From the NCBI GenBank assembly GCA_913061465.1, contig CAJXSU010000001.1:84717-148716 (forward strand): 64,000 bases of DNA. Reading direction: 5' to 3'. The translations under genes were made by a program, and so were the position numbers. The notes beneath the pieces are model-generated. The model was not told where the DNA came from and did no database searches. It saw nothing but the letters and a program-made list of their open reading frames with translations. Positions 27,953 to 61,054 of the stretch are shown one piece after another. How positions within the stretch are numbered: the stretch's first letter is position 1; each line of letters starts with the position of its first letter. The stretch is from an uncultured Flavobacterium sp. (GTDB lineage: Bacteria > Bacteroidota > Bacteroidia > Flavobacteriales > Flavobacteriaceae).

Positions 27953-27954
27953 AT

Positions 27955-31913: not shown

Positions 31914-31922
31914 ATGGAATTT

Positions 31923-40034: not shown

Positions 40035-40672
40035 TAATTTATTTTTTTAGCAGGATTCCCTATATAAATGCCTCTCTCAATAACATCTTTTACTACAACA
40101 GATCCTGCACCAATAATAGTTTTAGATGTGATATTTACATTATTTCTAATGATACTACTACTGCCAATAAGACAATTTTCACCAATCATTACCTCACCAT
40201 TGAGTATTGCATTTGTAGAAATGTGAGTATGATTTTTAATAACACAGTCATGCTCTATTAATGACTTATTATTAATAATACAATTTTGTCCAATACTTGC
40301 ATCTGTATTTACAATTGCATTATGCATTATGATTGTTCCTTTCCTAACTTTAGCGTGTTTAGACACATAAGCATTTGGAGAAATAATCACTGGGAGATCA
40401 CCCTTATTATTACTCACTAAATTAAATAACCCTTCTCTTAGCATTGAATCACCCATATGCCCAATAGTAATCAGAAAGTTATAACCAGCCTTTATATAGT
40501 TAATTATTTCACTATCATTTCCAATTACCTCATAACCTAAAATTGTTTTACCTAACTCAGAAGGTAAATCAATAATTCCTTTTATTTGATATTTATCCTC
40601 TTGTTCAATCACATCGATACATGATTTGCAATGACCACCGCCTCCAATAAGTATTATTTCTTTTTTGTGCAT
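40034..40672 (-). CDS. NeuD/PglD/LegH-type sugar O/N-acetyltransferase (left-handed beta helix)
   Basis: HKKEIILIGGGGHCKSCIDVIE, hexapeptide repeats, VVVKDVIERGIYIGNPAKKI; ATG at 40672 preferred over the GTG at 40687. Confidence 0.87.
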   Translation of the reverse strand: MHKKEIILIGGGGHCKSCIDVIEQEDKYQIKGIIDLPSELGKTILGYEVIGNDSEIINYIKAGYNFLITIGHMGDSMLREGLFNLVSNNKGDLPVIISPNAYVSKHAKVRKGTIIMHNAIVNTDASIGQNCIINNKSLIEHDCVIKNHTHISTNAILNGEVMIGENCLIGSSSIIRNNVNITSKTIIGAGSVVVKDVIERGIYIGNPAKKIN

Positions 40673-40676
40673 ATTT

Positions 40677-41834
40677 TTAAATAACACTACTCGTAATATT
40701 AACTAATCTATCAACCAACCACTCAGAATTTGATAAATCTCCCTTTTGACAATCTTTGAACATGGGCAATTTATTCATCAATTCCCAAATAGGACGTGTC
40801 ATGATTCCAACTTCATTGGTTTGTTCTAAAAATTCATCTCTTTCCTTTCTATCCTTCAATATAAGTGCATTAAGCCAATAATTGGCCTCCGTATTCTTTT
40901 TTTCACTAACAAATTCGATACCTGAGTCTTTAAAAAAGATTTCATATTTCTTCGCTAATTCTCTTTTTCTTTTTATAAAATCTGGTAATTGCTCCATTTG
41001 TGCCACTCCTAAAGCAGCTGCTAAATTAGTTAGCCGATAATTGTATCCAATTACATCATGTATATATTCCCATTTATGGGGTTGTTTTGCTGTTGTGGTA
41101 ATGTGTTTTGCTTTTTTAGCTAATTCTTTATCATTGGTAAGCAGCATACCTCCTCCACCTGTTGTAATTGTTTTATTTCCATTAAAACTCAACGTTCCAA
41201 ATAACCCAAAGGTTCCAGTATGTTTTCCTCTATAGGTACTCCCTAGGCTTTCTGCTGCATCTTCAATTAAGGAAATATTATATTCATCGCAAATTATTTT
41301 TATTTCGTCTATTCTACAAGGATGCCCAAAAGTGTGCATCGGTATACATGCGGAAATTTGTTTCCCTGTTTCTTTATTAATTGTTTCCCGTTGATTTGTG
41401 GTTTTGTTGAATCGTTTTATCGTTGATTGTTTTAACCATTCTTTTAATGATTGAGGTGATAAACCCATGGTATTTCTATCTACATCAATAAAAATGGGTT
41501 TTGCCCCCGTATAAGAAATTGCATTAGCGGTAGCAACAAAAGTAAGTGGTTGAGTAATGACCTCGTCATTTTCTTTTACACCCGATAACAGTAAAGCTAT
41601 ATGTAGAGCAGCAGTTCCATTTACGGTCGCAACAGCATATTTTGAGCCTGTATACTCTGCCATCATCTCCTCAAACTGTGTAACGTATTTCCCAACACTT
41701 GAAACAAAGGTTGAATCTATACACTCCATTAGATACTTCTTCTCATTACCTCCAAAGATAGGTTCATGAAGTGGGATAAAACCTATTGGTTTATTATAAA
41801 CTTTTCGAATGAATTTTATTGTTTCTTGGTGCAT
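40677..41834 (-). CDS. LegC-family PLP aminotransferase
   Basis: 385 aa; FIPLHEPIFGGNEKKYLMECIDSTFVSSVGKYVTQFEE, SFNGNKTITTGGGGM. Confidence 0.88.
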   Translation of the reverse strand: MHQETIKFIRKVYNKPIGFIPLHEPIFGGNEKKYLMECIDSTFVSSVGKYVTQFEEMMAEYTGSKYAVATVNGTAALHIALLLSGVKENDEVITQPLTFVATANAISYTGAKPIFIDVDRNTMGLSPQSLKEWLKQSTIKRFNKTTNQRETINKETGKQISACIPMHTFGHPCRIDEIKIICDEYNISLIEDAAESLGSTYRGKHTGTFGLFGTLSFNGNKTITTGGGGMLLTNDKELAKKAKHITTTAKQPHKWEYIHDVIGYNYRLTNLAAALGVAQMEQLPDFIKRKRELAKKYEIFFKDSGIEFVSEKKNTEANYWLNALILKDRKERDEFLEQTNEVGIMTRPIWELMNKLPMFKDCQKGDLSNSEWLVDRLVNITSSVI

Positions 41835-41946
41835 TATATCTAATATAGGTAGCTTAAGTTTTTAATTTGGAGAAGTAAAAGTTAGATTATCAAATCTACT
41901 TATTTTTTTCTCGCAAAGCTTTGCTCCGGTTGTTACTTTTATTATT

Positions 41947-43149
41947 TTACATTTTAGCATCCAAATACTTCCCGACTTCTTTATGTCCAAAATTTGGAAT
42001 CATTTTAAAGAATAAATCAACTATTTGTTGTTTATCCCATTGTTTGTCAATTTTTAACTTTGCAATCGTATTTTCAAACAGCTTCAATTTGTTGTCTTCA
42101 ATATGAAGATCGTTTTTAACAATTCCAAGGTTTTCAAAACGATCCATATTTAAAGTTTCCTTATCAGTAAAAAACTCTTCAAAATCCTTTTCTCCTGTGG
42201 TATCACTTTTTGTAAATAAGCAAGGCCATTTTTTGCTATTAGTGATTGTTAATTTATTATTAGCGTGGCCTATAAAAAAACTACGTGCTTCTTCTTCTGT
42301 TTTAAAAAGAACAGGATTTAATCCTTTTTCTTTTAAATATCTCACTGCAATTTCAGAAAAAGTAGTTAAATGTAAATTTTCATTAAGTTTAGGAAAATAA
42401 ATATCTCGATTTTCACCAAAGATGCAAGACATTAAACAAAGCTCACCCGCCTCTTTTGGTATCACAAAATATCTTTTGACATCGTTAGGAGCAACAATAG
42501 GTTGGTTTTTTTCAAGCCGATTATTAAAACCATGCAATAAAGAACCATCTGAAAATGCCACATTGGCAAACCGCGCCATCGAAACATTTATTTCTTTGCT
42601 TCTTCGATTTACAAACATTTCCATAATACGTTTGGAAGCGCCCATCATATTTACTGGATTGGCTGCTTTATCTGTTGAAACACAAAAATATTTTTTAACA
42701 CCATTTTCAATTGCCTGTTGAAGAGTTTTATCGGTGTTAAAAATATTAGTATCAATCATACGCATTAAAGTGAAAGGATCTTTTTCACTTCTCACATGTT
42801 TTAAAGCGGAAAGATTTAATACATAATCGTATTGTCCATCAACTTTCCAGAAAGCATCATATTCTATTGAACCAACATCAAGGGCAAATGTCTGAAAATC
42901 ACCACTGATATATCCAAAAGAACTTCTAATATCTCGTACTAGTTCCACCAGATTATTTTCAGAAATATCAACCACATGAATCTTTAGAGGATTTCTTTTA
43001 AAAATCTCTTTAGTTACTGCTTGTCCTATAGAACCTGCTCCCCCGATTACCAAAAATTTAGAGTTAGAAACTATTTGTTCTAATTCTACTCTATGATTTT
43101 GGATATCTTTGCTGAAGAGTTCTTTGCTTCTTCCTATTAAGTTTAGCAT
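41947..43149 (-). CDS. NDP-N-acetylhexosamine 4,6-dehydratase (Polysacc_synt_2; LegB/PglF-like)
   Basis: 400 aa; VIGGAGSIGQAVTKEIF, SALKHVRSEKDPFTLMRMIDTNI, STDKAANPVNMMGASKRIME. Confidence 0.87.
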   Translation of the reverse strand: MLNLIGRSKELFSKDIQNHRVELEQIVSNSKFLVIGGAGSIGQAVTKEIFKRNPLKIHVVDISENNLVELVRDIRSSFGYISGDFQTFALDVGSIEYDAFWKVDGQYDYVLNLSALKHVRSEKDPFTLMRMIDTNIFNTDKTLQQAIENGVKKYFCVSTDKAANPVNMMGASKRIMEMFVNRRSKEINVSMARFANVAFSDGSLLHGFNNRLEKNQPIVAPNDVKRYFVIPKEAGELCLMSCIFGENRDIYFPKLNENLHLTTFSEIAVRYLKEKGLNPVLFKTEEEARSFFIGHANNKLTITNSKKWPCLFTKSDTTGEKDFEEFFTDKETLNMDRFENLGIVKNDLHIEDNKLKLFENTIAKLKIDKQWDKQQIVDLFFKMIPNFGHKEVGKYLDAKM

Positions 43150-43155
43150 TTCGTA

Positions 43156-44445
43156 TTATAAAATTTGTTGTGATTGAATCGCACCAGTAAATATTTGATC
43201 CCACTTTTCTATTCTATTATTCCAATCAAATAATTCTTTAACTTTATTGACATCAATTTTATTTATTTTTTTGTCATTTATTGCATACTCCATAGCTTGC
43301 TTCCATTTCTTGTAACCAATTGATGGTACAATAAAGCCGCAATCATTTTCTTTTAGTACTTCTGCCGCAAGTCCCGCATCTGTTGTAATTATCTGATTTC
43401 CCATTAGCATGGCATAAAAAGTAGACATTGGTCCAGCATTAATAATGCTAGTCATAAAAAACGTATCTGTTGCAGAATATAATAATTTGAGTTTTTCCTC
43501 ATCAATATATCCCAAAAATGTAACCTTATCTTCTAAATTGTATTTCTTAATCAATCTATTTAATAATAGACCATATTTTTCAGGCCCCTGAGATGTGAAA
43601 AAACAATGAAATTTTTTATATTTTAATTGATTGATAACATTTAATGCTTCATGAATTTGATATTCAGGAACCAATCGAGATGAAAATAAAAAGATATGAC
43701 CTTTGTTTTCTATATTTAATTCTTTTTTTGCTTCATTTGAAGATATACTAGGCTTCCAAAACTCTAAATCTGCTCCAAAAGTATTGAAATTCACTTTGCA
43801 AGAAAATTTTTCCTTTATTTCAGGAATAAAAGCTTTATGGGCTAACATTAAACTTTTAATGTGCATCATAAATTGTAGTTGTTGCCTGCCTTTAATAAAA
43901 TCATGCAACATCCTTACTGGGTTAATTGAAAATTTAAATTTTCCTAATAAAACTTGAGAATATAAAAAATGGTTAAAGTGGATCGCCACCCTATCGGAAA
44001 ATTTCTCTTGTATATTTAACCCAAAAGCATTTCTACTAGCGGGTAGAACAATTAAGTATTCTGTATTATGTGGTTTATTATTTATGTAATTATTGAGATA
44101 ATCAATCATCTCCGGAGAAAATATAAAGTCCGTTTTATTTAATCCGCTCCATAATTTAATGTTTTTAACAGGAAATGATTTTGTTAACAAACCATTATTA
44201 AAAGTATGAGCATATACTTTATCTGCTCTTACATCGGGACGCCAAACTTCCCAAGTATAATGATCGAATTTATCCAGTACTTTATTGCCAAACTGAAAAG
44301 CCCAATCCTCTTGCCAAACACCAATTTTTTCATTTTTAGGATTATACCAAACATGAGCCGCCCTGTCTAAAGAGTTATTCTCCTTAATATAGCCAAATTT
44401 TGGACTAAAGGTCTTAATATATATAACATGATACTTTTTACTCAT
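43156..44445 (-). CDS. Glycosyltransferase, GT4-like
   Basis: 429 aa; FLFSSRLVPEYQIHEALNVINQL, MTSIINAGPMSTFYAMLMGNQIITTDAGLAAEV. Confidence 0.82.
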   Translation of the reverse strand: MSKKYHVIYIKTFSPKFGYIKENNSLDRAAHVWYNPKNEKIGVWQEDWAFQFGNKVLDKFDHYTWEVWRPDVRADKVYAHTFNNGLLTKSFPVKNIKLWSGLNKTDFIFSPEMIDYLNNYINNKPHNTEYLIVLPASRNAFGLNIQEKFSDRVAIHFNHFLYSQVLLGKFKFSINPVRMLHDFIKGRQQLQFMMHIKSLMLAHKAFIPEIKEKFSCKVNFNTFGADLEFWKPSISSNEAKKELNIENKGHIFLFSSRLVPEYQIHEALNVINQLKYKKFHCFFTSQGPEKYGLLLNRLIKKYNLEDKVTFLGYIDEEKLKLLYSATDTFFMTSIINAGPMSTFYAMLMGNQIITTDAGLAAEVLKENDCGFIVPSIGYKKWKQAMEYAINDKKINKIDVNKVKELFDWNNRIEKWDQIFTGAIQSQQIL

Positions 44446-45925
44446 TCATTTCCTTTTTAATATACTTATAAGTCAATTTTGGATTAACTATTTCGATTAA
44501 TTCATACACTTGTTTTTTTGTAATTAAATTTACCGAAAATAAAATACCGAATACAATTATTAAAAAAATTGGAGGAAATAAAACCCACCAATACATTGTA
44601 ATATCTTTTAAAAAAGGTACAACTAAATAAGATGTTAAAACCATAATAAATATAACCAAATAGGTTAATAAAACTCGATAGTCAAAATTAACTTCCCCAG
44701 TCCGTATTGACGCCAAAATAACTAATATATTATGGAAAACATTTACAGCTAACAGATTTATTGCCAAACCAATAGCTCCAAGCCCTAAATATTCTGTTGA
44801 GACAAAATAAATAACACTAATAATGTAGAAGATGAATTTTGCCAATTTTAACCAGAAATTCATATAAAACTTACCCATTCCGCTTAATATATTACCATAA
44901 GGCATCCCAACAATTGTAATATAAGATGCATAAATCAGAAATATAAAGGGAGTAATACTATTTTGATATTTATCTCCTAAAACAGCCAGTAATAGTGGTT
45001 CAGCAATAATACCAAGTAAACAAATGAATGGAAGAATAAAACTTGCTATAAAGGTTTGAAATTTATTAATTTTAACATTAAGATTTTCCCAGTTATTTTC
45101 TTTTATATATCGAGAAAATAATGGGAAAAATACGGTACCCATTGTATTGCCCAGAATAAGAATCATTCCTCCTAAAGAAAAAGCTGCAGCAAAATACCCT
45201 AATTCAGTAGAATTTGTATAATGTTGAAGAATTAATCTATCTGAATAACCAATAAGTGAGTTTAGTATAACTATTAAAGAAATAGGAATTGCAATTTTAA
45301 GATGGTTTTTAGCCAATTCTTTCCTATACTTCCCATAAGGTAAAGAGCGAAAAAGATTAATTGCTATGGGTAAAACTATTATACCTGTCAATAAATTCCA
45401 ACCAACCAAACCCACCGCATTGAAACCTAATAGAACCACAACTATTTTTCCTAGTTGAAATAATATGCCTCGTACTATCTTTGGTAAATTTGCCTTAGCT
45501 TGTTTTAGTTGACCTGTAAAAGTAGAATCATTAAACTGTATTAGCTTAGTTATTACCATTGCGAAAAGCGTTATGATAATTACTTGTTCATGAATGCTAC
45601 TTTCGAACTGATAATTTAAAATATATTTCTGAACAGCAAACCATATTAAAACTGTAAAAAGAAAAATAATTATAGCTATTATCTGTAATCTTGAATAGGT
45701 GGCCAAACTATCCCCAATATCTTTACCTTCGGATATTAATTTAATATTACCTGTTCCAAATAAACCCGTAATAAACCCGAAGATCCCAACATAAGCAGTA
45801 GCGTAAGCAATCGTACCTAGCACTTCCGGCCCAGCAACCCTTGCCACCACAATTCCTGAAATTAACCCCAATATTCTCAATGACATATTAGAGCCAAACT
45901 GGACTAAAAATTTTTGCTTAAGCAT
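44438..45925 (-). CDS. wzx: Wzx-like oligosaccharide flippase
   Basis: 495 aa polytopic; QFGSNMSLRILGLISGIVVARVAGPEVLGTIAYA. Confidence 0.88.
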   Translation of the reverse strand: MLKQKFLVQFGSNMSLRILGLISGIVVARVAGPEVLGTIAYATAYVGIFGFITGLFGTGNIKLISEGKDIGDSLATYSRLQIIAIIIFLFTVLIWFAVQKYILNYQFESSIHEQVIIITLFAMVITKLIQFNDSTFTGQLKQAKANLPKIVRGILFQLGKIVVVLLGFNAVGLVGWNLLTGIIVLPIAINLFRSLPYGKYRKELAKNHLKIAIPISLIVILNSLIGYSDRLILQHYTNSTELGYFAAAFSLGGMILILGNTMGTVFFPLFSRYIKENNWENLNVKINKFQTFIASFILPFICLLGIIAEPLLLAVLGDKYQNSITPFIFLIYASYITIVGMPYGNILSGMGKFYMNFWLKLAKFIFYIISVIYFVSTEYLGLGAIGLAINLLAVNVFHNILVILASIRTGEVNFDYRVLLTYLVIFIMVLTSYLVVPFLKDITMYWWVLFPPIFLIIVFGILFSVNLITKKQVYELIEIVNPKLTYKYIKKEMNE

Positions 45926-46844
45926 TAAATCTCACTTTACTAATGAAATCATTTTGAATTTCGTTGATAAGAAAATGAATATTACCAGCTGTATGAGGAG
46001 TAATAATCAAATTTGGCAATTTCCAGAGTTGTGACCATCTAGACAAGGGTTCTTTTTCGAACACATCAAGCGCGGCGGCTTTGATTTGATTATTTTTCAA
46101 AGCCTTATATAATGCATTTTCATTAATAATTTCACCTCTTGCAATATTAATAATCATTGTTTCTCCACCCATAGCCAATAGCTTCTCTTCATCAATAAAA
46201 TGACAAGTATCAGTGCGTAATGGCAATGCAACAATAATAATCTCACTATCTGTTAAAAATTGATTTAGTTGATCTTTTAAATACCATTTGTTTATAGACT
46301 TATCTTTTCCTTTATTATTGGAATATCCCAAAACATTACATCCAATATTCTGAAATATTTCAGCAATTGCTGTCCCATTATTACCTATACCAAGTATTCC
46401 AATATTATAATCTCGAATGGATCTTATGTTTGCTTCAAAAAAAGCGGCTTGGTCCCATTTTCTTTTTTTTTGATTTAATATAGCGCTAGGAAATTCACGT
46501 ATAAGAGATAATGCCATTAGAAGTGAATGTTCTGCAATAATACTACTAGCAATACCCTTAGATGTCTCTAAATTAAACTCTTTTGGTATGTTATATTTAT
46601 CAAGATAATTAATGTTGCTAATACCTAGATATAAAAGTTCTAAATGCTTTACCAATTCAAATTCAGGAAAATTAAAAGAAAAACAATAATCAGCCTGAGG
46701 CAATTTCACCAATAAACTTTTTGTGTCCGAAACGAATTGAACTAAAAAATTATCTTCGTAATTACCCTCAAAATTTTCCTCAAATCTCTTTAACCAACTT
46801 TCTCTGGTGAAACGATCGTTGGTTTGAATAACAATATTTTTCAT
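45918..46844 (-). CDS. D-isomer-specific 2-hydroxyacid dehydrogenase
   Basis: 308 aa; GILGIGNNGTAIAEIF, NIARGEIINENAL, LDVFEKEPL, TPHTAGN. Confidence 0.9.
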   Translation of the reverse strand: MKNIVIQTNDRFTRESWLKRFEENFEGNYEDNFLVQFVSDTKSLLVKLPQADYCFSFNFPEFELVKHLELLYLGISNINYLDKYNIPKEFNLETSKGIASSIIAEHSLLMALSLIREFPSAILNQKKRKWDQAAFFEANIRSIRDYNIGILGIGNNGTAIAEIFQNIGCNVLGYSNNKGKDKSINKWYLKDQLNQFLTDSEIIIVALPLRTDTCHFIDEEKLLAMGGETMIINIARGEIINENALYKALKNNQIKAAALDVFEKEPLSRWSQLWKLPNLIITPHTAGNIHFLINEIQNDFISKVRFNA

Positions 46845-48040
46845 TAATTTCTTAATTTGTTTCTAAAAGCCAATGCATTAACTAAAATTTGTCTTTTGAG
46901 AATACGATAAACTATATTAAAATCATCAAAATGGAAAAAAGCAATGGTTTTATCCCCTTTAATATCACTAAGCCATCCCCTAAAAGTTAACTCATTTACC
47001 TTTCTGTATTGTTGGAACGATTTATAACTTGAAAACAGATTTAAATATTTTTTTCCGTAATCAAACCTATAAATATTCTCAGGGTTCTGACCAGTTGCAC
47101 ATAAATAATCCATTAATGGAAAATTCATTCCACATAAATCTGCCAAAGCATTTTGTTGCCAGTATCTTGAATTAATTTCTATTAGCTTAGTTTTCCCATC
47201 TCGTTCATCATACTTAAATTCTGCACTTCCAACACCTATATAGTTTATAGAATTAAATAGTTTTGTTCCTATTTGTTTAAGTTTTTCATCCTTTATACTC
47301 TGAGCACAAGTAGCTATACCAAAATGTATGGGATTTTGATGAATCTTTTTTAATGTAAATGCTAGTTTTGTATTTCCCTTTTTATCAATAAACACACTTA
47401 TCTTAGTGTTTTTATCATCTGAACTCTTTATTATTTCTTGCACTATAACAGGAACTTCCAGTTTTTTTAATAAATCTAACTTTTTAATAAGTTGTTCTTC
47501 ATTATCAATTACAAATCCTTTTTTAGAACCACTTACTTTAATCCTCCATATATTAACGTCTCTGGCTTTAATAAAAACAGGATAAGTGAGTTCGCTTATT
47601 TGATTTTCAATGGGTTTACTTATGTCTGTAAAAACAGTTTTCGGCACATCAATATTGGCTTTTAATGCCATTTTATATTGAATGTATTTGTCTTGAATAT
47701 CTATTATTAATTTTTTATTAGATAGATTATGTAAAAAATATTTATCGAAGAATTCTTGATTCCTAGCATATAACATTAAATATACATCTGAAGCAATAAA
47801 AACAACTGGTTTCTTAGCTAAAGTATTACAAAAATCGCTTAATTCTTGTAAGGCAATTTCATCATTCTCTTGTGGATGTGTAAACACCTTTCCTTCAATA
47901 TATCTTGAATAGTATCCAATTTCTTTAGCATAAGAAACTCCATAAACTTTAACACCAAGTTTTCCCAAGCTTCGTCCTATTGCCAAACCCGTTTCAGATA
48001 GACCAAAAACTATAGCAGGATTCTCATACTTATTTCTCAT
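46844..48040 (-). CDS. ATP-grasp family ligase
   Basis: NPAIVFGLSETGLAIGRSLG, YPVFIKARDVN, KLIEINSRYWQQ; internal ATG at 48040 preferred because the ORF track start (48091) overlaps the upstream CDS by 62 bp. Confidence 0.83.
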   Translation of the reverse strand: MRNKYENPAIVFGLSETGLAIGRSLGKLGVKVYGVSYAKEIGYYSRYIEGKVFTHPQENDEIALQELSDFCNTLAKKPVVFIASDVYLMLYARNQEFFDKYFLHNLSNKKLIIDIQDKYIQYKMALKANIDVPKTVFTDISKPIENQISELTYPVFIKARDVNIWRIKVSGSKKGFVIDNEEQLIKKLDLLKKLEVPVIVQEIIKSSDDKNTKISVFIDKKGNTKLAFTLKKIHQNPIHFGIATCAQSIKDEKLKQIGTKLFNSINYIGVGSAEFKYDERDGKTKLIEINSRYWQQNALADLCGMNFPLMDYLCATGQNPENIYRFDYGKKYLNLFSSYKSFQQYRKVNELTFRGWLSDIKGDKTIAFFHFDDFNIVYRILKRQILVNALAFRNKLRN

Positions 48041-49166
48041 GTAGACCTTCAGCTGTTTTTCTGTCTCTCCAAATTGGTTTAACATTTTCATTTGACAAGC
48101 TTACATTTATCTTTGGCTTTTTCAAACAATCAGGACAAACATTCTTATTAAACCCGAAATCTTCAAATAATGGATCTGTATTATATTCTTCTGTGCAAAA
48201 AGAGCAAGTCCTTTTCTCAACAACAGATAGCCTCCTAGGATTGAAAGAATACTCTTCCTTAAATGATACAATTCTGTCCTTTAAATAATGAACTGAATTA
48301 CTTTCATTTTCACAATTCTCACATATTGGAACATCATATTTATCAAGAGAATTTAGTTTTGCACTTCTATCACCACACAAAAAACAGTGCATTATTTCAT
48401 GTATTTTTACAGAAATAGTTATTGATTGTGAACCAAATGTCTTTAAGAACGACTTATCGACTCTACTGGCAATTCTATTATATATGTCATTGCTTGAAAC
48501 ATTATGCGATTTATTTTTTCCAAAAAACTCGGTGAATGTAAATAAAAAAGCAGCACCAATATGTTTTGTGACCTTCATTTCAGAGGCTTCAACTAGTGAT
48601 TTTAGTTTTGTGGGAGAATAATAGTATTGAAAAAAAGGTGGTCTAATAATTTTCTTGCGTAATATCTTTTTAACCGTATTCTTAATCCTCTTTTTGGTAC
48701 TTCCACGCATAACATTCCAAGAATTGTTAGGCGTTGTAATTATAGCAACTCCTCCTGGTCGTAATGCCCTATACATTTCATCCATCGCTTCCTTAGGACC
48801 TTCAATAAAATGTTCCATTACCCCAAACGACAAATAGCCACTCAATGAATTATCTTCATAAGGCATCTGCTTAATATCCCCTTCAACAAAAGGTAAATTA
48901 AACCCATTTTTTTTTTGCCATTCCTTAAGGAAAAGAATTGTTTCCTTAGAAAAATCTAATCCTATTGTGTTTATCCCAAGTCGACTCAAATAGAAATTGA
49001 ATTTCCCCAAACCACATCCAGCCTCTAGTACATCTCCAAAACGTGGGGTATATTTTAATATATATGGCCTTAGACCATAGTAATCCCACATGTCTATTTC
49101 AACTTCTATCTTACTATTTTCCCATAAATCAGTCCATACTTTTTTTTCTTGTCCTATTGTCTCCAA
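48030..49166 (-). CDS. Class I SAM methyltransferase with C-terminal Cys-rich (zinc-ribbon-like) region
   Basis: 378 aa; DVLEAGCGLGKFNFYLSRLG, ALRPGGVAIITTPN; tail with CFLC, CENC, CSFC, CPDC. Confidence 0.87.
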   Translation of the reverse strand: METIGQEKKVWTDLWENSKIEVEIDMWDYYGLRPYILKYTPRFGDVLEAGCGLGKFNFYLSRLGINTIGLDFSKETILFLKEWQKKNGFNLPFVEGDIKQMPYEDNSLSGYLSFGVMEHFIEGPKEAMDEMYRALRPGGVAIITTPNNSWNVMRGSTKKRIKNTVKKILRKKIIRPPFFQYYYSPTKLKSLVEASEMKVTKHIGAAFLFTFTEFFGKNKSHNVSSNDIYNRIASRVDKSFLKTFGSQSITISVKIHEIMHCFLCGDRSAKLNSLDKYDVPICENCENESNSVHYLKDRIVSFKEEYSFNPRRLSVVEKRTCSFCTEEYNTDPLFEDFGFNKNVCPDCLKKPKINVSLSNENVKPIWRDRKTAEGLHEK

Positions 49167-49174
49167 AATTAGAA

Positions 49175-50299
49175 TTAAAATTTATTTAAATATTTTAAAA
49201 TATAACTTAACTCCTCATCCGTCAATTCAGCATGTAACGGTAACGTAATAAATGTATCGACTTCTTTTTCAATAAATTCACAATCCTTGGCATAAGGCTT
49301 AAATAAAGGCTGTAAACTTAAAGGAGTATAATGACAACCTGTTGCTATACCTTTAGATTTTAAGTATATCATTAAATCATCACGTTTTTCAGCACGTATT
49401 CCAAACATTTGGTAACAATAGTTTTCTGGCTCAAAGGGCACTAAAGGCTCAATTCCATCGATATCTTTTATACCATCTAAATACATTCTAATTATTTCTG
49501 CCCTACGTGCATTAAACTTTGGGAGTTTTTTTAATTGTGCTAACCCAATTGCAGCAGCAAGGTCATTCATATTATATTTATAACCCAAGACGTTAAGTTC
49601 ATAAAACCAATGCAAAGCATCTTTATTAGCATCTGTATAAGCTTGGGCAGTTTTCCAATTGTCTTTATCAATACCTACCCAACGCATGGCCTTCACATCC
49701 TTGAATAATTCGGGTTGGTTAGTAACCATCATCCCACCGTCCCCGGTTGTCATTAGTTTTTTCTCTTCAAATGAATAACACCCTATATCACCCCAGGTAC
49801 CCAACACTTTTCCTTTGTAAATTGCGCCAGCAGTATGTGCGCAATCCTCAATCACTGCTAATCCTTTTTCCTCAGCCCAAGGCATTAATTCTTCCATCGG
49901 TACTGGATGTCCTGCAAAATGTACTGGCATTACAGCAACTACATCATCTGTATATTTTCTTTTCATATCATTCAAATCCATACCTAAGGTAACAGGGTCA
50001 GAATCAACAAAAACTGGTATTAATCGATTGTACAAAGCTGCACTTGCAGTTGATGAAAATGTTAATGAGGGAACCAAAACTTTTGATCCCTCTGGGAATT
50101 TAAAGGCAGCCAAAGCCAAATGTAATGCAGCAGTAGCCGAATTTACTCCTATTGCTATTTTACATCCAACAAACTTGGCCCATTGTTTTTCAAATTCATT
50201 TACATTGGGTCCTAAACCAACCCATGAGCGGTCCATAGCTTCTTTTATGTTTTGTAATTCTTCATCTCCAAAGGAGGGTTTGAAAAGTCTGATGTTCAT
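49175..50299 (-). CDS. DegT/DnrJ/EryC1-family PLP aminotransferase
   Basis: 374 aa; CYSFEEKKLMTTGDGGM (Lys retained), AVIEDCAHTAGAIYKGK. Confidence 0.92.
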   Translation of the reverse strand: MNIRLFKPSFGDEELQNIKEAMDRSWVGLGPNVNEFEKQWAKFVGCKIAIGVNSATAALHLALAAFKFPEGSKVLVPSLTFSSTASAALYNRLIPVFVDSDPVTLGMDLNDMKRKYTDDVVAVMPVHFAGHPVPMEELMPWAEEKGLAVIEDCAHTAGAIYKGKVLGTWGDIGCYSFEEKKLMTTGDGGMMVTNQPELFKDVKAMRWVGIDKDNWKTAQAYTDANKDALHWFYELNVLGYKYNMNDLAAAIGLAQLKKLPKFNARRAEIIRMYLDGIKDIDGIEPLVPFEPENYCYQMFGIRAEKRDDLMIYLKSKGIATGCHYTPLSLQPLFKPYAKDCEFIEKEVDTFITLPLHAELTDEELSYILKYLNKF

Positions 50300-50302
50300 T
50301 GT

Positions 50303-50866
50303 TTATTTGTTTGAAATGTGTTTATACTCCGTTATAAATTGTTTTAATGTCATATTTTTTTCATCCTTAGCAGATAGAATAGGTTTATCAGTTGGCCAAT
50401 TAATCCGAATTGTTTTATCATTCCATAAAAGTCCTCTTTCATTCTCCTTAGAGTAAAAATTGTCAACCTTGTATACTACCTCACTTACTTCTGTTAAAGT
50501 ACAAAACCCATGGGCGAATCCTCGTGGGATAAATATCATTTTTTTATTATCTGCACTAAGCTCAATACTATCAAATTGTCCGAACGTTTCGGAATCCTCT
50601 CTTAAATCAACAAATACATCTAATACTGAACCGTTAACACAACGCACCATCTTAGATTCTGAAAATGGGGGAAGTTGAAAGTGTAACCCTCTAATAATGC
50701 CTTTTTCTTCAGATCTAGAATGGTTTTCTTGTACCCAGTTTCTATCAAGTCCTTTTTCTTTGAAAATAGAATCATCAAAGGTTCTCATAAAAAAACCTCT
50801 GCTATCGTTACGAGGGGCTAATATAATTTCGAAAACGCCTCTTATATCTCTTTCTTTAAATATCAT
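50303..50866 (-). CDS. RfbC-like cupin epimerase (dTDP-4-dehydrorhamnose 3,5-epimerase family)
   Basis: 187 aa; DSRGFFMRTFDD, QENHSRSEEKGIIRGLHFQLPP, IPRGFAHGFCTL. Confidence 0.9.
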   Translation of the reverse strand: MIFKERDIRGVFEIILAPRNDSRGFFMRTFDDSIFKEKGLDRNWVQENHSRSEEKGIIRGLHFQLPPFSESKMVRCVNGSVLDVFVDLREDSETFGQFDSIELSADNKKMIFIPRGFAHGFCTLTEVSEVVYKVDNFYSKENERGLLWNDKTIRINWPTDKPILSAKDEKNMTLKQFITEYKHISNK

Positions 50867-51944
50867 TTTGTGTATTCCAGTAGTTAGAATAATTTTCTAT
50901 TTGCTCTGTGCATAGATTAAAAACATCCTCTGTTTTATACCTCTTGTACCAATCAACGGTGAAGGCTATTGTCTGATCTAAATCAAACAATGGATTCCAA
51001 CCAAGTTTATTTTTGGCCTTTGTTATATCTAAAGAAAGCAACTTAGCCTCATGCAATTTTTCTTTATCTGAAATGTCATTCCATTCCCCTTTTCCATAAT
51101 TAACTATTGTTTTATTCAACAGCTCTTCTACCGAAACTATATTTTCTTTCTCAGGTCCAAAATTCCAAGCTTCATCGAACTTTTTTTCACTAATCATCTT
51201 GGCACCAAGCAATAAGTAGCCCCCTAGAGGCTCTAAAACATGCTGCCAAGGGCGAGTTGCATGTGGATTTCGAATTTCAATTGTCTCTTCTTTTTCGATA
51301 GCATTTATAATATCCACTATAATTCTAAATGGAGCCCAATCTCCACCACCAATTACATTGCCGGCTCTAGCAGAGGCTATCTTTTTTTCTGAATCTTGAA
51401 AAAAAGAACGTCTGTAAGAACTAATTACAAGCTCTGAGGCACCTTTACTAGCACTATATGGGTCATACCCACCCATAGGATCTGTTTCCTTATAACTATA
51501 ATCTTTCTCAATGTTTTCATAACATTTATCTGTTGTTATAAAAACACCCGTTTGTAAACTCGCAGACTTTCTAAAAGCTTCAAGTAAATTAACAGTACCT
51601 ATTACGTTTGTCTCGAAAGTATAAACAGGATCGTCGTAACTATCTAAGACTATTGGTTGGGCTGCTAAATGAAACAATATCTCCGGTTTTTCAATTTCAA
51701 TAATTTCTTCAATTATAGATAATTCTCGTATGTCAGCTCTGTAATCTCTTATTTTTTTTTCAATTTTGGATAATACAAAATTATCCTTTTCAGATTTAGG
51801 ATCTAGAGATATTCCAACTACATCTGCACCTAAATTATGTAACCAAATAGAAAGCCAAGAACCTTTAAAGCCAGTGTGACCAGTAATTAAAACTTTTTTT
51901 CCTTTATAAGTTTGTAAAAGAGAATTTATTTCCAAACTTTCCAT
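50856..51944 (-). CDS. rfbG: CDP-glucose 4,6-dehydratase
   Basis: 362 aa; YKGKKVLITGHTGFKGSWLSIWLHNLGADVVGISL, NPHATRPWQHVLEPLGGYLLL. Confidence 0.95.
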   Translation of the reverse strand: MESLEINSLLQTYKGKKVLITGHTGFKGSWLSIWLHNLGADVVGISLDPKSEKDNFVLSKIEKKIRDYRADIRELSIIEEIIEIEKPEILFHLAAQPIVLDSYDDPVYTFETNVIGTVNLLEAFRKSASLQTGVFITTDKCYENIEKDYSYKETDPMGGYDPYSASKGASELVISSYRRSFFQDSEKKIASARAGNVIGGGDWAPFRIIVDIINAIEKEETIEIRNPHATRPWQHVLEPLGGYLLLGAKMISEKKFDEAWNFGPEKENIVSVEELLNKTIVNYGKGEWNDISDKEKLHEAKLLSLDITKAKNKLGWNPLFDLDQTIAFTVDWYKRYKTEDVFNLCTEQIENYSNYWNTQNDI

Positions 51945-52696
51945 TTTGCTTCATTATTATTCCAAATCTTATTCAGATGATTAACATCTCTCACAGTATC
52001 AGCACACTCCCAAAAACCCTCATGCTTAAATGTCATAACTTCACTTTTTTTCGCTAGTTCCTCTAAGGGCCCAATTTCAAAGTCACAGTTTACGTCTGAG
52101 GTTAAACTATTGAGCATATCTTTATTAAAAACCATGTAACCACCATTGATCAAACCTTTGCTTGTTTGTGGTTTTTCCTCAAAAGAAAGTACCAGTCCAT
52201 TTTCTTCAAGTACCTCACCAAACATAGACGGAGGTTTTACACCAGTTATAGTAACTAATTTACCATGGTTTTTATGAAATTTAACAAGATTATTAATGTC
52301 AATATTAGCTACACCATCTCCATAAGTCAACATATTTACATCGTCTAAATACTTTTCTAGTCTCTTAATTCGACCTCCTTTAAGAGTTTCTAAACCGGTG
52401 TCAACCAACGTAACTTTCCATTCATCAGAGACTCCATTGTAATATGTGATTTCCCCGTTAGCAGTATTTATAGTAAAATCATTATTATAACTCTGTAACT
52501 TTAAAAAATAATCTTTGATTACATTAGCCTTATAACCAAGTGCAATCACAAATTCCTTGTAGCCGTAATGAGCATATGATTTCATAATGTGCCATATTAT
52601 GGGCCTACCACCTACTTCTACCATTGGTTTTGGGATTAATTCTGTGACACTACCTAATCTTGAACCGTAACCTCCTGCTAAAATTATTACTTTCAT
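51926..52696 (-). CDS. rfbF: Glucose-1-phosphate cytidylyltransferase
   Basis: 256 aa; MKVIILAGGYGSRLGSVTELIPKPMVEVGGRPIIWHIMKSYAHYG, LVDTGLETLKGGRIKR. Confidence 0.95.
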   Translation of the reverse strand: MKVIILAGGYGSRLGSVTELIPKPMVEVGGRPIIWHIMKSYAHYGYKEFVIALGYKANVIKDYFLKLQSYNNDFTINTANGEITYYNGVSDEWKVTLVDTGLETLKGGRIKRLEKYLDDVNMLTYGDGVANIDINNLVKFHKNHGKLVTITGVKPPSMFGEVLEENGLVLSFEEKPQTSKGLINGGYMVFNKDMLNSLTSDVNCDFEIGPLEELAKKSEVMTFKHEGFWECADTVRDVNHLNKIWNNNEAKWKVWK

Positions 52697-52740: not shown

Positions 52741-53709
52741 TTATTTTTTAAAAGGATGCTTAGTTAAAGGAAATTTAGCAAATGGATGATACTCTCCTTT
52801 TAAACCAATAGGATTTGAATTTCTAATATCATGAACAATTTCAATAGCCTGTCTAGCATCTTCTATACCATATCCATTTCCTTCTAATACTCCTCTATAC
52901 ACTTTTGTGTGTAAGTCTGAAAAACCAACACTAAATTCTAACTCTTCACCTTCAATGGTAATTGATCTATAGGTTCTTTGTCCTTTCGCTTTTATTTCTT
53001 GAGGTAATAAGTCATAATTAATTGACAAAAACCAACGAACTCTAGCTCTTTCAAACTCTAAATATCCAGAAGCTCTATCGTGGGATTGAACATGTACATC
53101 ATTTCTTTTCACACTTCCAAAAATCCAGGAAAGCATGTCATAGAAATGAACACCAATATTTGTTGCGATACCTCCAGACTTACTTTGATCACCTTTCCAC
53201 GAGGTGTAATACCAATTACCACGAGATGTTAGATACGTTAAATCTATTTCAAATACTTTGTCCTTTGGCGCAGAGTCTACCTTTGCTTTTAAATCTATAA
53301 TACTTTGATGTAGACGTAATTGTAAAATATTCCAAACACGTTGATCTGATTCTTTTTCCATTTTTTGGAGCGCATCCAGATTCCAAGGATTTGTAACTAG
53401 CGGTTTTTCACAAATTGCATCAGCTCCTCTTCTTAAAGCCATTCTTATATGAGCATCATGTAAGTAATTTGGTGTACAAATGCTCACATAATCTAACTCA
53501 ATACCTTTGTCATATTTTAGTTTTTCAATATGCCTATCAAATCGTTCAGTTTCCACAAAAAAAGCTGCATCTGGGAAATAACTGTCCATAATACCAACAC
53601 TATCAAAACGATCGAGTGCTGCTAATAAATTGCTATCTGTATCCTTTATTGCTTTTAAGTGTCTTGGAGCTATGTAACCAGAAGCTCCGATAAGTGCAAA
53701 ATTCTTCAT
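52741..53709 (-). CDS. Gfo/Idh/MocA oxidoreductase, WbpB-like
   Basis: 322 aa; FALIGASGYIAPRHLKAIKDTDSNLLAALDRFDSVGIMDSYFP, ICEKPLVTNPWNLD. Confidence 0.87.
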   Translation of the reverse strand: MKNFALIGASGYIAPRHLKAIKDTDSNLLAALDRFDSVGIMDSYFPDAAFFVETERFDRHIEKLKYDKGIELDYVSICTPNYLHDAHIRMALRRGADAICEKPLVTNPWNLDALQKMEKESDQRVWNILQLRLHQSIIDLKAKVDSAPKDKVFEIDLTYLTSRGNWYYTSWKGDQSKSGGIATNIGVHFYDMLSWIFGSVKRNDVHVQSHDRASGYLEFERARVRWFLSINYDLLPQEIKAKGQRTYRSITIEGEELEFSVGFSDLHTKVYRGVLEGNGYGIEDARQAIEIVHDIRNSNPIGLKGEYHPFAKFPLTKHPFKK

Positions 53710-54291
53710 CTATTTAATTCTTTTTACTCTATTATTTTCTATTAAATATTCTTGATTACTTTCAAAACAAGTGGCAATTCCCTTTTCATTAAAATCTAAT
53801 CGATGTCCGTATTCACTTACCCATCCAATGTGTTGAGATGGATTTCCAACTACTAATGAATAATCCAGCACTTCTTTAGTTACCACAGCACCAGCTCCTA
53901 TAAATGAAAATTTTCCAATATCATTTCCACAAACAATCGTAGCATTAGCTCCAATGCTAGCTCCTTTTTTAACTATTGTAGTCATATAATCATTTCTACG
54001 ATTTACGGCACTTCTGGGGTTTATAACATTTGTAAATACCATCGATGGGCCCAAAAAAACATCATCTTCACATACTACCCCAGTGTATATAGATACATTA
54101 TTTTGTACTTTAGTGTTGCTACCTAAAATTACATCAGGAGAAATAACAACATTTTGACCTATATTGCAATTTTCTCCCACCACACTATTAGCCATTAAAT
54201 GAGAAAAATGCCAAATTTTAGTATTCTTACCGATTAGACAACCCTTATCAATTATAGCTGTTTCATGGGAGAAATATTTTTTTTCTTTCAT
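53710..54291 (-). CDS. Hexapeptide acetyltransferase, WbpD-like
   Basis: 193 aa; left-handed beta-helix repeats, PRSAVNRRNDYMTTIVKKGASIGANATIVCG. Confidence 0.9.
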   Translation of the reverse strand: MKEKKYFSHETAIIDKGCLIGKNTKIWHFSHLMANSVVGENCNIGQNVVISPDVILGSNTKVQNNVSIYTGVVCEDDVFLGPSMVFTNVINPRSAVNRRNDYMTTIVKKGASIGANATIVCGNDIGKFSFIGAGAVVTKEVLDYSLVVGNPSQHIGWVSEYGHRLDFNEKGIATCFESNQEYLIENNRVKRIK

Positions 54292-54300
54292 ATTACAAAA

Positions 54301-55584
54301 TTAAAGTGTTCTATCAACTAAAGAAGTTGGCAGAATATTTTTCACATCGTAAATCACAGACTTATCTTTTAATAAAAGTGAAAAATCTAAATTCATGAAT
54401 TTATTGTGAGCAACTGTTAAAACAATGGCGTCAAATTTGGTATCAGGTATTTTTTTTGATGACATCATTCCATATTCATGCATTACTTCTTCTTCATTAG
54501 CCCAAGGATCATGAATTGTGATATTTGTTCCATAATCTTTTAAAGCATTTATAAGATCTACTACTTTAGTATTTCTTACATCTGGACAATTTTCTTTAAA
54601 GGTAATTCCTAAAACTAGAACTTTAGATCCATTTACAGGGATGTCTTTCTTAATCATACACTTTACAATCTCAGAGGCCACATAATCTCCCATACCGTCG
54701 TTTAATCTTCGGCCAGCTAAAATAATTTCAGGATGGTAACCATACTCTTGGGCTTTTTGAGCCAAATAATAAGGATCCACCCCTATACAGTGCCCACCAA
54801 CCAAACCTGGCTTAAAAGGCAAGAAATTCCACTTTGTTCCGGCAGCTTCCAACACATCATGAGTGTTGATATCCATTAAATTAAATATCTTGGCAAGTTC
54901 ATTTACAAAAGCGATGTTTATATCCCGTTGAGAGTTTTCAATTACTTTTGAAGCTTCCGCTACTTTTATGGTTGGAGCCAAATACGTACCTGCTGTAATT
55001 ACAGATTTGTATAAATCATTTACCTTTTCTCCAACTTCAAGAGTTGATCCTGAGGTGACTTTTAATATTTTCTCAACCGTATGCTCTTTATCTCCTGGAT
55101 TAATTCTCTCTGGTGAATATCCTGCATAAAAATCTTTATTAAATTTTAACCCAGAAACTTTTTCTAGAACTGGCACACAATCTTCCTCTGTAGCTCCTGG
55201 ATACACTGTAGATTCATAAATTACAATATCTCCCTTTTTTAAGACTTCGCCAACGGTTTCACTCGCCTTTATAAGCGGCAATAAAATAGGTCTATTATTT
55301 TTATCAACAGGTGTTGGAACGGTTACAATGTAGTAATTACAATCTTTAATTTTATCTAACTGATTGGTGCAAAACAGTCCAATTTCATCAGAATCTTCAA
55401 CAATAAGTACAGATTGTAATATTTCATTATCCACCTCTAAGGTAGAATCAACCCCGGACATTAACTCTGAAACTCTATCGGTATTAATATCAAAACCAAC
55501 TACTGAATATTTTGTAGCAAACAATCTTGCCAAAGGCAAACCTACATATCCTAATCCTATAATTGCTATTTTGTCTTTTTTCAT
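54301..55584 (-). CDS. UDP-N-acetylhexosamine 6-dehydrogenase, TviB/WbpO-like
   Basis: 427 aa; [56 protein letters not shown]. Confidence 0.92.
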
Positions 55585-55590
55585 ATTTAT

Positions 55591-56574
55591 TTATAAATTT
55601 TTCCAATACCATTTTACAGCTTCTTTCAAACCTTGTTGAAGCGTAAACTGAGGGTTATAATTTAAATTTTCTTTTGCTTTAACTATACTTGCATGTGAAT
55701 GAGGGATGTCACCTGCTCTATTTGGGCCGTATATAACTTCAACGCTTGAAATTTTTGAATCAAACTCAGATAAATACTCTTTTAAATAGTTCATTAAATC
55801 ATTCAATGTATTACGATCTCCATAGGCTACATTATAGATAGTATTAATTGCTTTTTCGTTAGTTGTGACTAGGCTTAATAAATTTGCTTGTATCACATTA
55901 TCAATGTAGGTGAAATCTCTTGAATAATTTCCGTCACCATTAATAACTGGAGATTCCACTTTCATTAACTGGCTAACAAATTTTGGAATTACTGCTGCAT
56001 AGGCTCCGTTAGGATCTTGCTTTCTACCAAATACGTTAAAGTATCGAAGACCAATGGTTTCTAAACCATAAGTTTTTGAAAAAACATCTGCATAGAGTTC
56101 GTTTACATATTTTGTAATAGCATAAGGTGATAAAGGTTTCCCGACAACATCCTCAACTTTCGGCATTGATTCTGAGTCTCCATAGGTTGAAGAACTAGCT
56201 GCAAACACGAATCTTTTCACCCCATTATCTCTTGAAGCTACTAACATATTTAAAAAACCACTCACATTCACATCATTGGAGGTAATGGGATCTTTAATGG
56301 ATCTAGGAACCGAACCTAATGCCGCTTGATGCAAAACATAATCTATATCTTTGGTCGCTTTTAAACAAGCCTCTAAATTTCTGATATCTCCCTCAATTAA
56401 AGTAAAATTAGGGTCTTCAAGAAATTCTGCTATATTATCTCTTTTACCAGTAACAAAATTATCAAGACAAACTACTTTATTATCTTTATTAAGAAGTGCT
56501 TCACATAAATTTGAGCCAATAAATCCAGCACCACCTGTGATTAAAACTCTTTTTTTAGTAAAATTTATTTCCAT
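55591..56574 (-). CDS. UDP-N-acetylglucosamine 4-epimerase, WbpP/TviC-like
   Basis: 327 aa; VLITGGAGFIGSNLCEALL, LRYFNVFGRKQDPNGAYAAVIPKF. Confidence 0.92.
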   Translation of the reverse strand: MEINFTKKRVLITGGAGFIGSNLCEALLNKDNKVVCLDNFVTGKRDNIAEFLEDPNFTLIEGDIRNLEACLKATKDIDYVLHQAALGSVPRSIKDPITSNDVNVSGFLNMLVASRDNGVKRFVFAASSSTYGDSESMPKVEDVVGKPLSPYAITKYVNELYADVFSKTYGLETIGLRYFNVFGRKQDPNGAYAAVIPKFVSQLMKVESPVINGDGNYSRDFTYIDNVIQANLLSLVTTNEKAINTIYNVAYGDRNTLNDLMNYLKEYLSEFDSKISSVEVIYGPNRAGDIPHSHASIVKAKENLNYNPQFTLQQGLKEAVKWYWKNL

Positions 56575-56602
56575 TTAAATATGTATTGCTGTGGTTTATA
56601 GT

Positions 56603-57733: not shown

Positions 57734-57779
57734 TCTTAACTTTTTTATTTTTCTCGACTACCACAGGTAGTCTATTTTA

Positions 57780-60505: not shown

Positions 60506-61054
60506 TTAAAATAAATCAGCGTTTTTAAACAACACTTGATTTGCATCTTTAGCGGAGACTTTAATATCTTTTGGATTTAACTTCCAGTCAATGGCTAAGC
60601 TCTTATCATCAAATGCAATACCACGTTCAGATGCTTGGCAGTAATAATTATCAACCTTATATGCTAAAACAGCTTCATTACTTAGCACTACAAATCCATG
60701 AGCAAAACCTTTTGGAATGAGAATTTGCTTTTTATTTTCCTCAGACAATTCAATAGCTATATGCTTCCCAAAAGTTGGGGAATCTTTACGAAGATCTACG
60801 GAAACATCTAAAACAGCCCCTTGAAGTACTCGAACCAGTTTGGTTTGTGCATAAGGGGTTAACTGATAATGTAAACCTCTCAATACACCATAAGATGATT
60901 TCGATTCATTCTCTTGACAAAAATTGACAGAATATCCTAAAAACTCCTCTAATTTATCCTGTCTGAAAGTTTCAGAAAAGTACCCTCGCTCATCAGAGAA
61001 AATTTTTGGCTGACATAAAATTAATTCAGGTATTTCTAATCTGGTAAAATTCAT
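60506..61054 (-). CDS. rfbC: dTDP-4-dehydrorhamnose 3,5-epimerase
   Basis: 182 aa; DERGYFSETFRQD, QENESKSSYGVLRGLHYQL, IPKGFAHGFVVLS. Confidence 0.95.
   Translation of the reverse strand: MNFTRLEIPELILCQPKIFSDERGYFSETFRQDKLEEFLGYSVNFCQENESKSSYGVLRGLHYQLTPYAQTKLVRVLQGAVLDVSVDLRKDSPTFGKHIAIELSEENKKQILIPKGFAHGFVVLSNEAVLAYKVDNYYCQASERGIAFDDKSLAIDWKLNPKDIKVSAKDANQVLFKNADLF

Follow-up and report, generated by a model that had tools for sequence, protein, structure and literature searches.

The window, i.e. the whole stretch of 64,000 nucleotides analysed here, carries at positions 45918-52696 a nearly gapless run of seven genes, all on the minus strand, in the order RfbF-RfbG-RfbC-DegT-methyltransferase-ATP-grasp-dehydrogenase. 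The earlier note had described these genes in this order, followed by Wzx, and all of the ORFs are indeed present:

51926-52696, minus strand: RfbF, glucose-1-phosphate cytidylyltransferase (TIGR02623)
50856-51944, minus strand: RfbG, CDP-glucose 4,6-dehydratase (TIGR02622)
50303-50866, minus strand: RfbC/RmlC-like 3,5-epimerase, candidate CDP-4-keto-6-deoxyglucose epimerase (TIGR01221)
49175-50299, minus strand: DegT/DnrJ/EryC1/StrS PLP aminotransferase, candidate CDP-4-keto-hexose C4 aminotransferase (PF01041)
48030-49166, minus strand: class I SAM-dependent methyltransferase, TTG start (PF08241)
46844-48091, minus strand: ATP-grasp ligase, candidate amide ligase for a CDP-4-amino sugar (PF02786)
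45918-46844, minus strand: D-2-hydroxyacid dehydrogenase, candidate acyl-group source (PF02826)
44438-45925, minus strand: Wzx flippase, same transcription unit (PF13440/PF01943); a homologue lies downstream of the dehydrogenase in locus L052 (Roseivirga sp. UBA6061)
43156-44445, minus strand: GT4 glycosyltransferase, possible user of the CDP sugar (PF00534)

Neighbouring genes overlap by 19 nt (RfbF/RfbG), 11 nt (RfbG/RfbC), 1 nt (ATP-grasp/dehydrogenase) and 8 nt (dehydrogenase/Wzx), or are separated by 3 nt (RfbC/DegT) and 8 nt (DegT/methyltransferase). The ATP-grasp gene probably starts at 48040 rather than 48091, as the L052 homologue starts there too. Between positions 43000 and 60500, promoter-like and terminator-like sites show no excess over shuffled expectation.

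Both RfbF (310 bits with TIGR02623, cut-off 300) and RfbG (478 bits with TIGR02622, cut-off 278) score above equivalog cut-offs, and RfbG contains TDK...YSASK, in agreement with the motif [ST]DKxnYx3K of CDP-Glc dehydratases (PMC8987622), which together place them in the CDP-glucose pathway. The RfbC-like protein reaches 202 bits with TIGR01221 (cut-off 156) and its His62, Tyr132, Tyr138 and Asp168 are retained in 69 to 71 of 71 homologues, as expected for an RmlC-type 3,5-epimerase. TIGR01221 is a model named after a dTDP enzyme (dTDP-4-dehydrorhamnose 3,5-epimerase). It is the second RmlC of this genome, and the other one is encoded in the same window (approximately 60518-61051); because the dTDP-rhamnose region thus has its own RmlC, the RfbC-like protein is spare.

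The fourth protein is a DegT/DnrJ/EryC1/StrS sugar aminotransferase (322 bits with PF01041, cut-off 19.8) which has kept its PLP lysine, K181 aligning with K188 of ArnB chain 1mdo_A. In enzymes of the RfbH/E1 type, a histidine replaces this lysine and an RfbI-type reductase acts as partner. The protein obtains only 140 bits with the RfbH model (cut-off 423) and is therefore not an RfbH/E1 3-dehydrase, as the earlier note had maintained; nor does any protein of this 84%-complete genome exceed the RfbH cut-off. Its best-scoring NCBIfam transaminase models are of the PseC, ArnB, LegC and WecE type, which are C4 enzymes, but the named cut-offs are not reached (PseC 261 bits against 424, ArnB 228 against 631, WecE 160 against 435). 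On sequence, it is a subfamily separate from PseC, ArnB and WecE, marked by a SFEEKK-x-[MIL]-TTGDGG motif found in 78 of 78 aligned homologues, and we infer C4 amination of a CDP-4-keto sugar as its candidate activity.

A search with this DegT protein returned 80 loci, to which a sampled genome added one (81), and 59 of them include enough flanking sequence to be informative; a plasmid search gave no matches at the limits used. DegT is adjoined by RfbC in 58, by RfbF in 51 and by RfbG in 45 of the 59 informative loci, some DegT loci having another SDR protein instead of RfbG. Loci with the four-gene core are distributed among several phyla and occur in isolates, including Rhodopirellula, Pseudoalteromonas, Paenibacillus, Clostridium, Nafulsella and Caenispirillum. 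Two loci from Desulfobacterales and Thermoanaerobaculia MAGs (L100 and L102) show 79-80% identity and might represent misbinned Bacteroidota contigs; they were left out as evidence of spread. The genes for conversion of CDP-glucose to the 4-keto-6-deoxy sugar, RmlC-type epimerisation and PLP transamination, the steps the earlier note had proposed, thus travel together in most of the 80 loci, whereas almost all genomes lack the full set of seven; the lack of co-occurrence that would speak against the earlier proposal is seen for the seven genes together but not for the core four. CDP-linked 4-amino sugars are not named in the freely accessible literature searched, and the four-gene route to a CDP-4-amino-deoxy sugar is widespread and apparently undescribed.

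Nine loci (L062, L063, L065, L068, L069, L073, L080, L086 and L087) provide support for C4 as the aminated carbon. They carry RfbH and an RfbI-like flavin reductase between RfbC and DegT (in L062, the one locus checked, RfbH scores 731 bits against the cut-off of 423), and their DegT proteins form a single clade nested within the family. As C3 would be deoxygenated in these loci, DegT could only aminate C4.

From the gene content, order, motifs and co-occurrence observed, we infer all substrates and products of the following pathway. RfbF would supply CDP-glucose and RfbG CDP-4-keto-6-deoxyglucose; the RmlC-type enzyme would invert C5 (and probably C3) to give an L-series 4-keto sugar, and DegT would transaminate C4, yielding CDP-4-amino-4,6-dideoxy-L-mannose (L-perosamine) or an epimer. 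A CDP-4-amino-4,6-dideoxyhexose is the most likely core product, probably L-configured. The dehydrogenase would convert a 2-oxo acid into a D-2-hydroxy acid (candidates: lactate, glycerate, malate or 2-hydroxyglutarate), the carboxylate of which the ATP-grasp enzyme would activate as an acyl phosphate and link as an amide to the 4-amine. That the unit leads, by these steps, to a CDP-4-amino-4,6-dideoxyhexose which carries an N-acyl group and is destined for a Wzx-dependent surface polysaccharide is the reading we favour, if by a modest degree. Homologues of the GT4 gene directly follow Wzx in L052, L062, L069, L080 and L086.

Acylation appears to be the variable part of these clusters, as 47 of the 59 informative loci have an acyl- or formyltransferase candidate nearby (NeuD/PglD-type acetyltransferase, GNAT, formyltransferase, FemAB-like or hexapeptide transferase), and the ATP-grasp enzyme would fill the slot of the N-acetyl-, formyl- or FemAB-type transferases of sister clusters. 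In L034, the hexapeptide transferase which follows the methyltransferase scores highest with O-acetyltransferases, which counts against the reading we favour. Formyltransferase and FemAB-like genes also occur in our window (30172-31913), but were rejected as the acylating enzymes, being at least 14 kb away and weakly similar to those adjoining DegT elsewhere.

The methyltransferase (72 bits with PF08241, cut-off 21) has a C-terminal domain with four CxxC pairs, likely zinc-binding; some homologues retain the pairs, while others have lost part of them. The predicted structure of the protein (pLDDT 77) matches generic class I methyltransferases only. It follows DegT in eight other loci, seven of which have no ATP-grasp gene, so that the earlier suggestion that it methylates the acyl group lacks support. 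It would instead act on the sugar or the finished glycan, independently of the choice of acyl group.

The ATP-grasp protein matches PF02786 weakly (26 bits, cut-off 19.8), yet its domain and metal-binding E and E-x-N place it, as a putative member, among the ATP-grasp carboxylate-amine ligases, the EFK and E-x-N motifs being retained in the L052 homologue; it falls outside the PRK12767 carbamoyl-phosphate synthase-like family (best 63 bits, cut-off 218). Because family scores are weak and the structure predicted from the two sequences available has a pLDDT of 45, its substrate is unconstrained. The dehydrogenase (162 bits with PF02826, cut-off 25) has the Arg/Glu/His catalytic residues of D-2-hydroxyacid dehydrogenases, both here and in L052, and is not a VanH (107 bits, cut-off 540). 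The pair accompanies the CDP core in only one other of the 80 loci, L052, which reads RfbF-RfbG-RfbC-DegT-methyltransferase-ATP-grasp-dehydrogenase-GT2-Wzx-GT4, with protein identities for the seven genes in order of 76, 55, 65, 73, 46, 45 and 36%. Of 198 Roseivirga-family genomes, one encodes the ligase, and the viral contigs scanned contain no further ligase sequences; a plasmid search with the dehydrogenase gave no matches at the limits used, and no substrate was suggested by PDB sequence searches with the ligase, dehydrogenase and methyltransferase proteins. PIG-L or polysaccharide deacetylase (de-N-acetylase) genes often lie next to relatives of the ligase, although this is weak evidence as polysaccharide deacetylase genes are common in polysaccharide clusters. 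Other relatives adjoin a ComA and phosphatase pair, predicted to make sulfolactate, which is a 2-hydroxy acid. The earlier proposal that the ligase amide-links a D-2-hydroxy acid is thus plausible but thin, its relatives lying near amine-exposing enzymes and the pair recurring in a single genome, and ligase and dehydrogenase probably attach a 2-hydroxy acid to the amine of the 4-amino sugar.

Alternatively, the pair might serve a different residue while the core still makes a CDP-4-amino sugar; examples are an amide of a hexuronic acid (from the neighbouring genes at 52741-59102) and the amino sugar derived from LegC (40034-43149). The same cluster holds TviB-like and UDP-glucose dehydrogenases, a WbpD-like acetyltransferase, a Gfo/Idh oxidoreductase and a LegC aminotransferase (562 bits, cut-off 420), and PF02786-type ATP-grasp enzymes have no specificity for sugar amines. 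However, L052 keeps the DegT-methyltransferase-ATP-grasp-dehydrogenase order with no match to the uronic-acid genes of the window within 21 kb, and a uronic-acid amide needs an amine, whereas a D-2-hydroxyacid dehydrogenase supplies an acid. We consider this alternative unlikely, though a real contender. Amination of C3 after a ketoisomerase, giving a CDP-3-amino-3,6-dideoxyhexose, is improbable: C3 transaminases exist among DegT proteins (QdtB 167 bits against 196 for ArnB), but the operon shows no recognisable ketoisomerase (the cupin encoded at 59138-59623 matches the mannose-6-phosphate isomerase domain PF01050), the top transaminase models are C4 enzymes, and RfbH with the RfbI-like reductase would remove the C3 oxygen in the nine loci above. 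We give equally little credence to RfbC and DegT acting on a dTDP- or UDP-sugar beside an incidental RfbF/RfbG, which the name of the epimerase model and the SDR replacing RfbG at some loci would suggest; linkage to RfbF, RfbG and RfbC in the informative loci, the separate RmlC of the dTDP-rhamnose region and a biochemically known CDP 3,5-epimerase (PMC12369002) all oppose it. Finally, polysaccharide clusters are mosaics and all seven genes rarely occur together, but chance shuffling of genes with no common product is very improbable given a core linked across several phyla and a seven-gene order common to a distant genome.

To our knowledge, the known CDP-activated deoxysugars are the 3,6-dideoxyhexoses and, since 2025, the 6-deoxy-furanoses of C. 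jejuni. We tentatively propose, with slightly less than even confidence, an undescribed multi-phylum CDP branch in which the RfbF-RfbG-RfbC-DegT core leads to CDP-L-perosamine or an epimer, RfbH and the RfbI-like reductase extend it to 4-amino-3,4,6-trideoxy sugars, and acyl modules are exchangeable, one of them being an ATP-grasp and dehydrogenase pair which draws on free 2-hydroxy acids rather than acyl-CoA. If true, a conserved CDP-4-amino branch would be an added nucleotide-sugar class and a testable source of L-perosamine, SFEEKKxMTTGDGG beside RfbF, RfbG and RfbC would serve as an annotation marker, and ATP-grasp ligases could acylate sugar amines from free hydroxy acids.

Among known systems, VanH/VanA (D-lactate dehydrogenase and ATP-grasp ligase) shows the same enzyme pairing, but the ATP-grasp family differs and VanH models match our dehydrogenase only generically. 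The CDP-3,6-dideoxyhexose pathway of Salmonella and Yersinia (RfbF, RfbG, RfbH, RfbI) shares CDP-glucose, the 4,6-dehydratase and the 4-keto intermediate, whereas the window has no RfbH or RfbI and a Lys-type transaminase takes the place of C3 deoxygenation. The earlier note had set its branch apart from the RfbH route, but RfbH-free routes from CDP-4-keto-6-deoxyglucose, to CDP-fucofuranose and CDP-6-deoxy-altrofuranose, have already been published for Campylobacter jejuni HS:41 (PMC12369002). That system likewise uses a cytidylyltransferase, a CDP-glucose 4,6-dehydratase and a CDP-4-keto-6-deoxyglucose 3,5-epimerase, but it finishes with C4 reduction and ring contraction (PMC12369002), whereas C4 amination and acylation are proposed here. 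The dTDP-, UDP- and GDP-4-amino-4,6-dideoxy sugar pathways (WecE, PseC and Per type) resemble ours in their 4-keto sugar, DegT transaminase and exchangeable N-acyl step (PglD-type), but here the carrier is CDP, and ATP-grasp and dehydrogenase replace an acyl-CoA-dependent transferase. L-Perosamine (4-amino-4,6-dideoxy-L-mannose), a possible product here, occurs in Aeromonas O6 O-antigens, for which a text search of the source found no gene pathway (PMC6562859). In the passages covered of the sources on Flavobacterium psychrophilum and Flexibacter maritimus, no ATP-grasp acylation route was found; in F. psychrophilum the sugar is UDP-derived Qui2NAc4N, the acyl genes are ketoacyl synthases and pglD homologues, and the R-group genes vary between strains (PMC6519341, PMC3210612). 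Both O-polysaccharides bear hydroxy-acyl amides on a 4-amino sugar, as proposed here (PMC6519341, PMC3210612), the 4-amino sugar of the marine Bacteroidota member F. maritimus being N-acylated with 2-hydroxyglutarate (PMC3210612).

The seven genes described in the earlier note (window positions 45918-52696) are arranged as stated, lying on the minus strand in the order RfbF, RfbG, RfbC, DegT aminotransferase (49175..50299), methyltransferase (48030..49166), ATP-grasp ligase (46844..48091) and D-2-hydroxyacid dehydrogenase. Wzx and a GT4 gene come next, all within a long polysaccharide cluster. Because neighbouring ORFs overlap or sit a few bases apart, and promoter- or terminator-like sites show no excess over shuffled expectation, the run is likely one transcription unit. 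RfbF, RfbG and RfbC score above the curated equivalog cut-offs. DegT exceeds the threshold of PF01041 and of none of the named transaminase models, and the sole family model passed by the ATP-grasp protein, weakly, is PF02786. Other amino-sugar genes are present in the window:

38976-43149: LegC-type aminotransferase (562 bits, cut-off 420), NeuD-like transferase, CBS-domain nucleotidyltransferase, FnlA/PseB-like dehydratase
52741-59102: TviB-like and UDP-glucose dehydrogenases, GalE-like, WbpD-like, Gfo/Idh, further DegT

We read the former as a second amino-sugar pathway, and the latter is probably a diamino-uronic acid pathway. Positions 23326-34205 hold deacetylase-like, UDP-GlcNAc 2-epimerase, DUF354, divergent DegT, formyltransferase, FemAB-like and CapK-like genes; relatives of the deacetylase-like and FemAB-like genes also occur in loci L066 and L071.

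In the seven-gene run, DegT carries SFEEKKLMTTGDGG, a motif kept in 78 of 78 aligned homologues, and its Lys181 aligns with Lys188 of ArnB (chain 1mdo_A), the PLP-carrying residue of that enzyme. The RfbH (3-dehydrase) model gives it 140 bits against a cut-off of 423, whereas the true RfbH of locus L062, with SFYPAHHITMGEGG in the corresponding stretch, reaches 731 bits; no protein of the window's genome, which is 84% complete, passes this model. By these sequence features DegT is a transaminase and not a 3-dehydrase, which upholds the earlier description of a lysine-retaining enzyme.

A scan of genome contigs with DegT found 113 relatives, the closest being from Bacteroidota, and 80 loci were kept; one locus from a sampled genome brought these to 81, with sufficient flank in 59. 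RfbC is present in 58 of the 59, RfbF in 51 and RfbG in 45, other SDR proteins often occupying the RfbG place where it is missing. The core reading of the earlier note, in which the CDP-4-keto sugar is epimerised and transaminated, is well supported by this co-occurrence. Hosts include isolates of Rhodopirellula, Pseudoalteromonas, Paenibacillus, Clostridium, Neobacillus, Nafulsella and Caenispirillum, plus many MAGs. At E < 1e-100, DegT occurs in one other genome among 396 in the sampled phylum and is absent from the same-genus and same-family genomes listed, as expected for an accessory polysaccharide locus. In five variant loci (L032, L046, L044, L055 and L081), RfbF, RfbC and DegT are joined by an SDR other than RfbG and by a nucleotide-sugar 6-dehydrogenase; this set might form a route to a CDP-linked 4-amino-4-deoxy-pentose, by analogy with UDP-Ara4N.

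Nine loci (L062, L063, L065, L068, L069, L073, L080, L086 and L087) bear on the aminated carbon, as they carry RfbH-like and RfbI-like flavin reductase genes between RfbC and DegT (RfbH identity confirmed by model for L062):

L062, 6068-9878: RfbH and RfbI-like reductase by DegT

As the oxygen at C3 is lost through the action of RfbH and its reductase (PMC8987622), a DegT following this pair is restricted to the C4 keto group, and the predicted product is a CDP-4-amino-3,4,6-trideoxyhexose. Together with the single clade formed by the nine DegTs within the family, and a ketoisomerase missing from the window operon, these loci make C4 the likely amination site in the window too. RfbC keeps His62, Tyr132, Tyr138 and Asp168, and a CDP-4-keto-6-deoxyglucose 3,5-epimerase was biochemically shown in C. 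jejuni HS:41 (PMC12369002), so the sugar is likely L-configured; L-perosamine, the talo epimer and an altro form are candidates among which sequence alone does not discriminate. A second RmlC in the genome's dTDP-rhamnose region argues that the window RfbC is a dedicated CDP enzyme.

In other loci, NeuD/PglD-type acetyltransferases (those of L040 and L061 exceed the TIGR03570 cut-off), GNAT, formyltransferase, FemAB-like or hexapeptide transferases lie after DegT, or just before it in Paenibacillus. At least one such candidate occurs in 47 of the 59 loci, an upper figure since some may be O-acetyltransferases or unrelated. None lies next to the window DegT, which is followed instead by methyltransferase, ATP-grasp and dehydrogenase. 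Co-occurrence holds for the core in most loci, but the last three recur as a set only in L052 (Roseivirga sp. UBA6061), whose gene order matches that of the window except for a GT2 inserted ahead of Wzx. Identities to the window are 76% (RfbF), 55% (RfbG), 65% (RfbC), 73% (DegT), 46% (methyltransferase), 45% (ATP-grasp), 36% (dehydrogenase) and 33% (Wzx). Housekeeping GuaA is 71% identical between the two genomes, so they are not closely related, and within the Roseivirga family one genome out of 198 was found to carry the ligase. On these two genomes and on gene context, the proposed acylation by a hydroxy acid is plausible.

Methylation of the acyl group, also proposed, is unsupported: the methyltransferase also comes after DegT in eight further loci, of which seven lack ATP-grasp, and a sugar hydroxyl, amine or acyl group are candidate substrates. 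Full-length alignment of nine sequences places four CxxC pairs in the tail of the window protein, the Cys-rich tail noted earlier, and of L056, L076, L084 and L103; they are lost in part or whole in L034, L045, L052 and L053, a pattern suggesting that the cysteines are probably structural.

Ligase homologues elsewhere lie in other runs, the first of these on Priestia megaterium plasmids and in Cytobacillus:

L112 (Priestia megaterium pBM600), 10043-14237; also L113, L120: PIG-L deacetylase, GT4, ATP-grasp, kinase
L115, 7147-9647; L119, 6601-9106: ComA-type sulfolactate synthase, histidine phosphatase, ATP-grasp in a row

Spore-coat genes lie near the Priestia run, and L112, L113 and L120 may represent a spore-surface glycan or small-molecule pathway. 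In L115, and in L119, judged alike by eye (Pfam checked for L115 only), synthase and phosphatase precede the ligase, and sulfolactate may be ligated to a glycan. In L118, L134, L135, L137, L140, L141 and L143, loci from genomes sampled in the class and phylum of the window, polysaccharide deacetylase genes adjoin the ligase or lie within a few genes of it, an adjacency of limited weight as deacetylases are common in such clusters. These contexts are consistent with acylation of a freed sugar amine, by a 2-hydroxy acid in one case.

The literature searched, limited in coverage, yielded no mention of a CDP-4-amino sugar. Aeromonas O6 is known to contain L-perosamine (PMC6562859); a search of that paper's text returned no nucleotide-sugar pathway. 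Amide-linked R-malic acid was reported for Flavobacterium psychrophilum in a review passage (PMC3210612), but the 4-amide was later assigned as 3,5-dihydroxyhexanoyl (PMC6519341), leaving Flexibacter maritimus alone as precedent: its 4-amino sugar bears, according to the same passage, a 4-[(S)-2-hydroxyglutar-5-ylamido] group, there also termed R-2-hydroxyglutaric acid (PMC3210612).
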